Shown here: piece after piece, positions 24,954 through 27,397 of the stretch
Numbering within the stretch: the stretch's first letter is position 1
How the letters are laid out: every line of letters begins with the position of its first letter
DNA from: Deltaproteobacteria bacterium IMCC39524
GTDB lineage: Bacteria > Desulfobacterota > Desulfuromonadia > Desulfuromonadales > BM103
Direction of reading: 5' to 3'
Assembly: GCA_029667085.1 (NCBI GenBank)
Contig: JARUHJ010000003.1
Location: 372,001-436,000 of the forward strand
Length of the DNA: 64,000 nt
Made by a program: the position numbers and the translations under genes
The notes under the pieces: model-generated
Database searches by the model: none
What the model was told of the DNA's origin: nothing
What the model saw: the letters and a program-made list of their open reading frames with translations, nothing else

Positions 24954-26159
24954 ATGGATAACCCCCACATCCTTATCATCGAAGATGATTCCAGCGTCTG
25001 TGAGCTTCTTTTCGCCTGTCTGAGCAAGGCAGGATATCGTGTCTCCATTGCCCAGAGCGGCGAGGCAGGCCTGTCGCAAATCGAAGAAGATCCTCCTGAA
25101 GCTATTGTTCTTGATCTCAACCTGCCCGGTATGAACGGGTTGGATGTGTGTCGCGCAATGCGCCGCGATCCATGGATGAGTAGAATCCCTGTCCTGATGT
25201 TAACCGGTCAGGCCGAAGAGGATGATGTTGTCGCTGGCTTGGAAGTCGGCGCCGATGACTACATGACCAAGCCGTTTTCGCCGAAGCTTCTGACTGCGCG
25301 GGTTAAGTCCTTGTTGCGTCGTCGCAGTAGCAAGCCAATCCCTGCAGATGGTACGGTCTCCGCTGAAAACTCACCGGAATCTTTGATGGTGAAAACGCTG
25401 GGCCGGTGTGAGTTGCGTGTCGGTAACCGGAGTTTGTCATGGACCGACGAATTCAGCCCAGCCCAACGTCAGCTGATGGCCATGTTGGTTGGATCCTCTA
25501 GCGGCAAGATCTCTCAGGAAGAGGTTCAGGTCTCGCTTTGGCCGGACAGCACGTCCACGCGAGCTCGTTCGAGCTTCGATTCCCTGCTGTCAAGAGTGCG
25601 TCGCACTCTTGATCAGACTTTGGCGCCTTTTGACAGCAAGAAGTATCTGGTCGTCAAACGCAGCTATCTCTGCCTTGAACATTCACTCATAGACGCGCAC
25701 GAATTTCGCCGCTTGATACGCAAGGCCAACCTGCAAATCTCTGCAGGTGAATGGTGGCCGGCTGAAATCACCTTTTCGTCGGCGTTCAGCCTCTGGAGAG
25801 GAACTTTTGTGCCGGGAGATTTCGGCAGTGATGCGGCCATAATTTTTCAGGATGAACTGGAGCAACTCTATCTCGACAGCAGTCAGACTTTTGCTCGTTT
25901 GTTGGCACAGAATGAACGCTACGAGGAAGCTGCGAAACTATTGCGAGACGCCTTGCGCTATGAACCGACCAATGATGGCGTTGTTCGACTGCTTTATTCG
26001 CTCTGCCTTGCCCAGGACAGCCCGGGGAAGGCCAACCAGGTCATCAAACAATACAGCGAAGCCCTGGTCCGTGAGAATTTCCCGGCCCATGACATAGAGG
26101 ATGCGCTATTGGATTTTCCCAAGGAGAAGCCTGCCCAGGGTTGGCTGAATCACAGTTAA
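24954..26159 (+). CDS. Response regulator with SARP-like winged-helix and BTAD output
   Basis: A 401-residue regulator. Residues 1-125 are a receiver domain with phosphoacceptor D54 (IVLDLNLPGMNG), switch T84 and K106 (YMTKPFSP). Residues 140-240 resemble an OmpR-type winged helix, and residues about 250-395 a helical bacterial transcriptional activator (BTAD) domain. This output pair is that of SARP activators, which bind direct repeats with 11-bp period. Such repeats lie just downstream, at 26210 and 26396. The start at 24954 has AAGGAAG; it is 24 bases after pgeF. No partner kinase is adjacent. Confidence 0.88.
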   Translation: MDNPHILIIEDDSSVCELLFACLSKAGYRVSIAQSGEAGLSQIEEDPPEAIVLDLNLPGMNGLDVCRAMRRDPWMSRIPVLMLTGQAEEDDVVAGLEVGADDYMTKPFSPKLLTARVKSLLRRRSSKPIPADGTVSAENSPESLMVKTLGRCELRVGNRSLSWTDEFSPAQRQLMAMLVGSSSGKISQEEVQVSLWPDSTSTRARSSFDSLLSRVRRTLDQTLAPFDSKKYLVVKRSYLCLEHSLIDAHEFRRLIRKANLQISAGEWWPAEITFSSAFSLWRGTFVPGDFGSDAAIIFQDELEQLYLDSSQTFARLLAQNERYEEAAKLLRDALRYEPTNDGVVRLLYSLCLAQDSPGKANQVIKQYSEALVRENFPAHDIEDALLDFPKEKPAQGWLNHS

Positions 26160-26209
26160 AAAATTAAAAAACAGCCAAACAGGCATTTTTTTCTTTGTCA
26201 ACACCCGGA

Positions 26210-26242
26210 TGTGAGAGATTTGTGAGAAGCCATGTGTATACT
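26210..26242 (+). promoter_or_regulatory. Tandem TGTGAG repeat with -10 element
   Basis: TGTGAG at 26210-26215 and 26221-26226, so with an 11-bp period, is followed after 10 bases by TATACT (26237-26242). There is no consensus -35, so activation by a bound regulator is likely. A similar pair is at 26396. Confidence 0.6.
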
Positions 26243-26248
26243 GCAGAC

Positions 26249-26361
26249 AATCTTTCGAATTTTTGTTTGAGTTTGCAGGCTATAAAGAGTGTTACAAAAC
26301 GAAGAGTTTTAATTTGATTTATTAGGGGGGCCCCCATCCATCGGATGGGGGCCATTTTTTT
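26249..26361 (+). ncRNA. Candidate small RNA ending in a strong terminator
   Basis: A transcript starting about 7 bases after the -10 (TATACT) would run ~112 bases to a terminator. The terminator has an 11-bp stem GGCCCCCATCC/GGATGGGGGCC (26329-26353) with a 3-base loop, followed by ATTTTTTT. No ORF with a ribosome site is present. The RNA identity is inference from the promoter-like and terminator-like features. Confidence 0.45.
26329..26361 (+). terminator. Intrinsic terminator (strong)
   Basis: An 11-bp G/C-rich stem with loop ATC is followed by seven Ts. It ends either the response-regulator transcript or the candidate small RNA. Confidence 0.9.
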
Positions 26362-26395
26362 ATTGAATATCATTCAAAAAGTGAGCTCTGCTGGT

Positions 26396-26429
26396 TGTGA
26401 GAAACTTGTGAGTGGTAGTGTGCTACAAG
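26396..26429 (+). promoter_or_regulatory. Second tandem TGTGAG repeat
   Basis: TGTGAG at 26396-26401 and 26407-26412 again has an 11-bp period, and both pairs share TGTGAGA-x-A-x-TTGTGAG. A poorer -10 (TACAAG, 26424-26429) lies 11 bases on. It is 35 bases after the preceding terminator. Confidence 0.55.
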
Positions 26430-26434
26430 TTGAA

Positions 26435-26500
26435 TCAGAATTAATCTTCTACCTCCGAAACAAAGAAAAGAGCCCGGGTCTTCGACCCGGGCTCTTTTCT
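26435..26500 (+). ncRNA. Candidate small RNA 2
   Basis: A transcript of about 65 bases would run from the second TGTGAG promoter to the terminator at 26468-26500. It carries CTACCTCCG before the hairpin, a stretch complementary to Shine-Dalgarno sequences. The RNA is inferred; its -10 element is weak. Confidence 0.3.
26468..26500. terminator. Bidirectional terminator
   Basis: The stem AAGAGCCCGGGT/ACCCGGGCTCTT has loop CTTCG and is flanked by A-rich and T-rich ends. It separates the plus-strand region from the convergent hydrolase gene. Confidence 0.9.
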
Positions 26501-26524
26501 TGTTTGAACAAGCAACCGGGCTGT

Positions 26525-27397
26525 TTATCGATCAGGTTCCGTTGTAAAACCTGTCCAACTTTCAATAACCTGCTTCAGGGTGTCCCGGTAACGCTTTCCA
26601 CCAACAACAAAGCCATCGTTGTGGCCGGCCTCAGGAATCCAGAGGAGCTGTTTCTCTTGCGGCGCCCTTGCGTAAAGTTCTTCGGCCATGCTGGGTGGGC
26701 AGATGCTGTCGTTCTTGCCGTGGATGAGCAGTAGTGGCGCTTCAAGATCTGCAATCTTTGCCAAATTGTTGTACTTTGCGCCGATCAGCCAGCCGAGCAA
26801 GCTGCTGAGCAACGGGTAGTGGTGGCGACCCATCGCCTCTATCGAGGTAAAGGGGGACTCCATGATCAGTCCGGCCGGAGTTCTGTGCAGGCTGCCTTCA
26901 AGGCTGACTGCAGCGCCGAGTGAGCGGCCAAAGAGGATGACGCGCTCAGCAGGCCAGCCGCGCTCGTTGAGAAAGTTCATGGCGCCGGCAAGGTCACTGT
27001 AGGTTCCTGTTTCGCTGGCTCGTCCCTTACTTGTGCCATATCCCCGGTAATTAAAGATGAACACGGTGACGCCGAGTTGATGAAGTAACTGCAGGGTTTC
27101 AAGGCGATGCGAGATGTTGCCTGCATTGCCCATGCAGAAGAGCACAGCGGGTGCCTCAGCCTGTCCAGGGACCAGCCAACCCTGGAGTTGAGTAGCATCT
27201 GTGGCCGAGAAGTTTATCTCTTCGTAGCCAAGGCTAACTCTCGCCGGAGTCGCCATATGAAAAGGTTCGGGGAAATAAATAAAGTGTTGTTCGAGAGCGT
27301 TACGAAGAGGCATGGTAAAAACCAGGGCAGCTACCAGGTAGAGCAGGAGCCGGTAGCGAAATTTGCTGAAGAGGACAGTTCTCTTTGCAGAAGCCAT
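26525..27397 (-). CDS. Alpha/beta hydrolase (BAAT/dienelactone hydrolase-like)
   Basis: A 290-residue serine hydrolase anchored by an N-terminal hydrophobic helix (LLLYLVAALVFTM, about 15-28). The oxyanion and nucleophile region is LFGRSLGAAVSLEG with GxSxG, an Asp lies in LLIHGKNDSICPP, and the catalytic His in EAGHNDGF. It resembles COG1073-type lipoyl/alpha-beta hydrolases of unknown substrate. ATG 27397 starts 7 bases after the end of trkH; a longer in-frame ORF extends into trkH but lacks a clear site. It closes the trkA-trkH group, though no functional link is known. Confidence 0.85.
   Translation of the reverse strand: MASAKRTVLFSKFRYRLLLYLVAALVFTMPLRNALEQHFIYFPEPFHMATPARVSLGYEEINFSATDATQLQGWLVPGQAEAPAVLFCMGNAGNISHRLETLQLLHQLGVTVFIFNYRGYGTSKGRASETGTYSDLAGAMNFLNERGWPAERVILFGRSLGAAVSLEGSLHRTPAGLIMESPFTSIEAMGRHHYPLLSSLLGWLIGAKYNNLAKIADLEAPLLLIHGKNDSICPPSMAEELYARAPQEKQLLWIPEAGHNDGFVVGGKRYRDTLKQVIESWTGFTTEPDR

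Follow-up and report, generated by a model that had tools for sequence, protein, structure and literature searches.

TGTGAG direct repeats beside a SARP-type response regulator gene mark a candidate promoter class that includes two predicted small RNAs

The locus described here lies within a 64,000-nucleotide stretch of the genome of Deltaproteobacteria bacterium IMCC39524, referred to below as the window. A plus-strand gene at 24954..26159 encodes a response regulator of 401 amino acids with a receiver domain (residues 6-118), an OmpR-type winged helix (approximately 145-245) and a BTAD domain (approximately 246-369). Pfam recognizes the receiver (Response_reg, PF00072; 6.3e-29) and the BTAD (4.8e-10, above the cut-off). 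The Trans_reg_C match of the window regulator is weak (0.028, below the Pfam cut-off); among orthologues, ten of ten have such a match between receiver and BTAD at E ≤ 1, the best at 5.7e-5. Compared with the PDB, a profile of the C-terminal half retrieves EmbR (3.3e-7) and AfsR (7.1e-5). A winged helix of OmpR type followed by a BTAD is the domain order that defines SARPs, and by its domain content the gene encodes a SARP-type response regulator, as the original prediction had proposed. Residues D11, D54, T84 and K106 of the receiver, which we take to be its functional residues including the phospho-acceptor site, are identical in all 19 orthologues, and the helix RARSSFDSLLSRVRRTL is among the best-conserved parts of the protein in the same set. 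The AlphaFold model is poor (pLDDT 54.2), with an order of helices and strands that fits a receiver, a winged helix and helical repeats.

Direct inspection of the window confirms two TGTGAG pairs with 11-bp spacing downstream of this gene. Box 1 (TGTGAGAGATTTGTGAG, 26210..26226, plus strand) consists of repeats starting at 26210 and 26221, and Box 2 (TGTGAGAAACTTGTGAG, 26396..26412, plus strand) of repeats starting at 26396 and 26407. A -10 element, TATACT (26237-26242, plus strand), starts 10 bases past Box 1, exactly as predicted; the corresponding hexamer of Box 2, TACAAG (26424-26429, plus strand), starts 11 bases past the box and reads TATAAG or similar in the alignment of several relatives. 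A -35 element is absent from both promoters, and a sigma-70 scan lists no promoter at 26200-26510. The -10 elements lead into two predicted small RNAs on the plus strand, RNA1 (26249..26361, its start inferred from the -10) and RNA2 (26436..26506, both ends inferred). The strong terminators claimed for both are found as GC-rich hairpins followed by a T run: that of RNA1 spans 26329..26361 (plus strand), with 11 pairs and the GC-rich stem at 26329-26353, and that of RNA2 has a covarying stem of 16 pairs at about 26465..26499 (plus strand; stem ends approximate, from the alignment). Only short mechanical reading frames occur between boxes and terminators, in agreement with the earlier statement that no ORF lies there. 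An Rfam search of 26160-26540 gave nothing over the gathering score, all 49 low-score matches falling below it.

SARP sites are described as direct repeats 11 or 22 bp apart with the 3' repeat 8 bp ahead of the -10 element, and AfsR as an activator of promoters without a -35 element (PMC10936776). The TGTGAG repeats have the 11-bp period and end 10-11 bases before the -10 element; the distance becomes 8 bases when the unit is taken as TGTGAG plus two to three further bases, and on that count the SARP-type geometry put forward at the outset fits. Among 65 distinct sites taken from the retrieved loci, 47 of them perfect, a TA-initial -10-like hexamer lies 9-12 bases past the box at 28 of the 47 perfect sites, against 0-7 of 47 at nine control offsets; this set includes homologous regulator-side sites and so represents fewer independent cases. 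A good -10 element is wanting at 19 of the 47 perfect boxes, including those at L014 and the L011 pair. Taken from sequence, this pattern supports the view that the TGTGAG repeats form a promoter class.

Perfect copies of TGTGAG-N5-TGTGAG number 10 in the 3.78 Mb genome (26210, 26396 and eight elsewhere), where a simple calculation from the twelve fixed bases gives about 0.45. Each of the ten has an A directly after the first repeat (TGTGAGA-N4-TGTGAG), and reversing this 13-base pattern gives 0 copies in the same genome. In the 22 genomes of the window's family there are 59 copies of the perfect 13-base box and two of its reversed counterpart. At the one-mismatch level the counts are 26 against 11 reversed for the 12-base pattern in the window genome, and 146 against 46 reversed for the 13-base pattern in 19 family genomes; since the reversed control reaches about a third of the signal, about a third of such sites may be chance. 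Allowing two mismatches, the window shows no excess (5 matches against 6.18 in shuffles), and the signal within it is therefore carried only by the two perfect copies.

The arrangement at the regulator is conserved. We retrieved 21 regulator loci, two of which are cut at contig ends (L140, L156), leaving 19 uncut loci with the window included. A box follows the regulator gene on its 3' side in 18 of these 19, with all twelve fixed bases in 12 loci, one mismatch in five and two mismatches in one. All 18 boxes are followed by a -10 hexamer at a distance of ten bases and, beyond it, by RNA1, which at L145 is cut by the contig end. The exception, L155 in genome G013, has the regulator and neither box nor RNA1. 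The original prediction had staked itself on conservation of the repeats beside the regulator in relatives, and this is what we find.

In a search of 136 genomes of the order, with the best 13 candidates of each genome scored, the regulator was present at E 1e-60 in 21 of the 22 genomes of the window's family and in none of the 114 others. The perfect box occurs in 17 of the 22 family genomes as against four of the 114 others, with one copy in each of those four. Co-occurrence of the two is strong (Fisher 1.7e-14, in a test that treats related genomes as independent) and, at the level of sequence, supports the conclusion that the box tracks the regulator across the order. Four genomes have the regulator and lack a perfect box (G013, G016, G020 and G021, the gene of the last being cut at a contig end). 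Distant regulator homologues from other families, at loci L157/L228 and L230, have no box nearer than 3 mismatches. A class-wide search that considered the best six candidates per genome returned no full-length protein as similar as the regulators within the family.

Three things connect regulator and box: adjacency, co-occurrence and protein class. Adjacency and co-occurrence are not proof of binding, and the same co-occurrence pattern would be expected if the boxes were a real promoter class bound by another family-confined regulator, the response regulator being a mere neighbour or target; G013, with a response regulator and no box or RNA1, fits such a scheme. We regard it as unlikely. It is opposed by the position of the box, which adjoins the response regulator gene in nearly every uncut locus, and by the 11-bp direct-repeat geometry, which is typical of OmpR/SARP-type proteins, the class of the response regulator itself. 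No box was seen on the 5' side of the response regulator gene itself in the 21 loci scanned with 1.5 kb flanks.

RNA1 is distinguished by an invariant element, TTGCAGGC in the DNA (26273..26280, plus strand) and UUGCAGGC in the RNA, that is identical in all 18 aligned loci. Strong matches to its model, R1 (E ≤ 2.7e-5), were found in 18 of the 22 family genomes searched and only in the family, the best match outside being weak (7.7e-4). The fold of RNA1 outside the terminator is unsupported: a local hairpin of five pairs has 78.8% of cells paired and no double change. What lies 3' of RNA1 varies between genomes, and RNA1 is therefore unlikely to be the leader of a downstream gene. A possible further copy in the window genome, C1:282814, was set aside; the match is weak (28.9 bits) and no box occurs in the preceding 114 bases. 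The two loci L191 (G009:C13) and L142 (G009:C64) point to a rearrangement: away from the regulator, which retains its own RNA1, G009 carries an intact RNA2 together with the 3' half of an RNA1.

RNA2 is built of a short 5' hairpin of four pairs (26437..26450, plus strand), the segment CUACCUCC and the covarying terminator. The segment holds an anti-Shine-Dalgarno-like CCUCC (26452..26456, plus strand) that is unpaired in the window with a probability of 0.98-1.0. Taken together, the two helices have 97.5% of 160 cells paired, with double changes in 21 cells against 6.0 in shuffles, and none of 500 shuffles reaches 21. Covariation, one of the checks suggested with the original prediction, thus supports the RNA2 helices and lends no support to the RNA1 fold beyond the terminator. 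The start of the RNA2 box lies 131 to 186 bases downstream of that of Box 1 in seven loci and 626 bases in an eighth. Strong matches to the RNA2 model, R2 (E ≤ 1.5e-7), occur in 12 of the 22 family genomes searched and only in the family; beyond the eight regulator-side loci they come from G005, G007, G009 and G015. RNA2 is located away from the regulator in G005, G007 and G009, still with a box in front, and a box with no more than two mismatches precedes RNA2 in all 12 genomes that have it. At E ≤ 0.01, weak R2 matches turn up in 34 of 40 genomes; those outside the family, which reach 2.7e-6 and 4.4e-6 at best, we provisionally take for look-alike terminators.

The CCUCC is kept in nine of the 12 RNA2s; the three that have lost it belong to G004, G005 and G007, all closely related to the window genome. 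Seven of the eight aligned RNA2s have it, wholly open in four, with one paired base in two and partly paired in L153 (0.23-0.84 unpaired). By computed pairing, RNA2 thus exposes the CCUCC expected of an anti-Shine-Dalgarno small RNA; the stretch noted in the original prediction is present and accessible in the window and is not universal among relatives. At L141 the second RNA has the hairpin-CUACCUCC unit duplicated, with CUACCUCU (CCUCU) as its second copy.

Overall, the sequence data support the conclusion that each box heads a conserved, terminated and apparently non-coding predicted transcript. Such transcripts might be short terminated by-products of conserved promoters that do not act on other RNAs, and the decay of RNA2 in near relatives through loss of its CCUCC, together with the lack of a supported RNA1 fold beyond the terminator, is what such by-products could look like. 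This explanation is improbable in our judgement: the UUGCAGGC element does not vary in any aligned locus, the RNA2 stems are preserved by double changes, and RNA2 remains behind a box even in the three genomes where it lies away from the regulator. Two specific modes of action were considered and rejected. A Csr/Rsm sponge would carry several GGA motifs exposed in loops, whereas a fully unpaired GGA occurs once each in three of 17 RNA1s and in none of eight RNA2s. Pairing between RNA1 and RNA2 was rejected from eight loci, in which 35 to 176 of 200 shuffles pair equally well. Hfq is encoded in 11 of the 11 genomes tested.

By sequence, the box is not small-RNA-specific and marks a wider gene set that is rich in c-di-GMP-I riboswitches and also includes secreted proteins. 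There are 249 c-di-GMP-I riboswitch matches in 19 genomes, of which the 150 listed were used for pairing with boxes. Among these listed matches, 19 of the 146 boxes with at most one mismatch lie no more than 300 bases upstream of a riboswitch on the same strand; at least 20 box-riboswitch pairs fall within 300 nt, against 0.07 expected under random placement, and one occurs in any other arrangement. L015 is an additional case from the window genome beyond the 20 pairs. In that genome four box sites (L009, L012, L015 and L017) lead into a riboswitch within 300 bases. The riboswitch at L009 scores in the c-di-GMP-I-GGC family, which includes cGAMP binders. The number of c-di-GMP-I matches per genome is 38 in G000, 27 in G003 and 36 in G005; the remaining 16 genomes searched have between 2 and 20.

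Genes behind boxes in the window genome include those for a receiver-PilZ protein (L013), a receiver-GAF-GGDEF protein (L022, one mismatch), a PilZ protein (L018, one mismatch, 0.6 kb on), subtilase-family proteins (L009, L011) and a protein with Laminin_G_3 and Ig-like domains (L012). Genes with no clear link encode an M24 peptidase (L014), a methyltransferase (L015, second frame), a DUF945 protein (L016), a lytic transglycosylase (L019) and a histidine-kinase-like ATPase protein (L020). The genes at L010, L017 and L018 sit 0.6-1.1 kb from the box. As a set, the predicted box genes point to cyclic-dinucleotide control of surface structures. The original proposal, a regulator with two small RNAs, is partly supported, namely as to promoter class, conservation, co-occurrence and conserved terminated RNAs, and needs widening as to the range of box promoters.

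Two further explanations fare worse. PhoB sites have a layout similar to that of the TGTGAG pairs, direct repeats with 11-bp spacing ahead of a -10 element, and the box could in principle be a Pho-type box used by a PhoB orthologue. We consider this very improbable and rejected it, as the best PhoB match (C3:268102, 241.9 bits) lies elsewhere, the window regulator scoring 139.5; no box within two mismatches occurs in 12 kb around that match, and the box is absent from 18 other families sampled. Two coincidental repeats beside ordinary terminators, a reading in line with the missing window excess at two mismatches, have a negligible likelihood and are refuted by the excess of perfect boxes over the reversed control and the conserved position at the locus, with the co-occurrence and riboswitch linkage also against them.

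Our preferred reading, to which we assign a probability of roughly 0.68, is that the predicted SARP-type regulator activates box promoters, those of the two small RNAs included, as part of a cyclic-dinucleotide surface programme. The box, its spacing, its conservation, the co-occurrence with the regulator, the riboswitch linkage and the conservation of the RNAs come from sequence; from these we infer binding, activation, transcription, RNA action and a role in surface life. A regulator dimer would bind TGTGAGA-N4-TGTGAG, whose two repeats lie one helical turn apart, and the activation domain would recruit RNA polymerase to a promoter that has a -10 and no -35 element. The regulon thus switched on would comprise the two small RNAs, c-di-GMP-I riboswitch leaders, a diguanylate cyclase, PilZ proteins and secreted surface proteins. 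The probable mode of action of RNA1 is via the invariant UUGCAGGC, and that of RNA2 via the exposed CUACCUCC at ribosome-binding sites; if so, the regulator would activate some genes directly and repress others through RNA. Expression of riboswitch-led genes would depend on the regulator together with the appropriate cyclic dinucleotide. A more far-reaching version, which we put forward tentatively and at somewhat less than even odds, makes the regulator a family-wide hub for the two small RNAs and the riboswitch-led genes, forming an AND gate of phosphorelay and c-di-GMP/cGAMP, with the RNAs repressing the opposite life style.

To our knowledge, most response regulators known to work through small RNAs belong to GacA/Rsm-type systems, and SARPs have mostly been described as activating antibiotic genes. 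The regulator studied here seems to sit at the centre of a previously undescribed circuit, probably one for surface life, in which a single SARP-type protein appears to join three layers commonly investigated separately: a phosphorelay, riboswitches for cyclic dinucleotides, and small RNAs. We found no description of the TGTGAG box or of RNA1 and RNA2 in the literature searched, which covered subscription journals little.

By layout, and by layout alone, the nearest characterized protein is GSU1771 of Geobacter sulfurreducens, a SARP-family response regulator with the same order of receiver, winged helix and activator domain. It controls biofilm and electron transfer, and its mutant showed changes in five genes with GEMM-I riboswitches (PMC10599522). 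The searched passages of that study show neither a box sequence nor a small RNA target, and its main text has no mention of small RNAs, a direct repeat or a consensus (PMC10599522). The short, strict TGTGAG box suggests a specific sequence that regulators laid out like GSU1771 might recognize. Like AfsR and EmbR, the window regulator combines an OmpR-type winged helix and a BTAD, and its putative sites are 11-bp direct repeats near the -10 element (PMC10936776); unlike them, it has a receiver in front and a non-actinomycete host, and two of its putative targets resemble small RNAs. GacA of Pseudomonas is a response regulator that produces two small RNAs, RsmY and RsmZ, in the choice between planktonic and sessile life (PMC4866733). 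In contrast to that system, the two RNAs described here are encoded next to their regulator and the box consists of direct repeats; a resemblance to a CsrA sponge is seen in neither RNA.

For SmelA075/SmelA099 and RS0680a, a CCUCC-type motif has been proposed to block ribosome sites (PMC3927594). These RNAs carry CCUCCUCCC in several hairpin loops (PMC3927594), whereas in RNA2 a single CUACCUCC separates a small hairpin from the terminator, the hairpin unit being doubled in L141. In the cGAMP/c-di-GMP riboswitch regulons of Geobacter, GEMM-I leaders ahead of surface and respiration genes are described as being under dinucleotide control (PMC6456294); in the window's family, by contrast, riboswitch leaders also bear a promoter box that they have in common with the response regulator locus.

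A few box sites depart from the usual arrangement. At L014, L118, L132 and L207 the usual -10 element is missing and the box continues into a conserved CCTGTGGATAGATTTGTGG-like stretch, which in our view resembles DnaA boxes. L011 has boxes at 2880 and 5548 (minus strand), 2.7 kb apart and with near-identical flanks, and a similar pair in G005:C99 is spaced 3.0 kb. L127 (G007:C274:11344-11393) is an array of five tandem TGTGAG repeats with an 11-bp period, equivalent to four overlapping boxes; the gene on its 3' side appears to be the one behind the single one-mismatch box L021 of the window genome.
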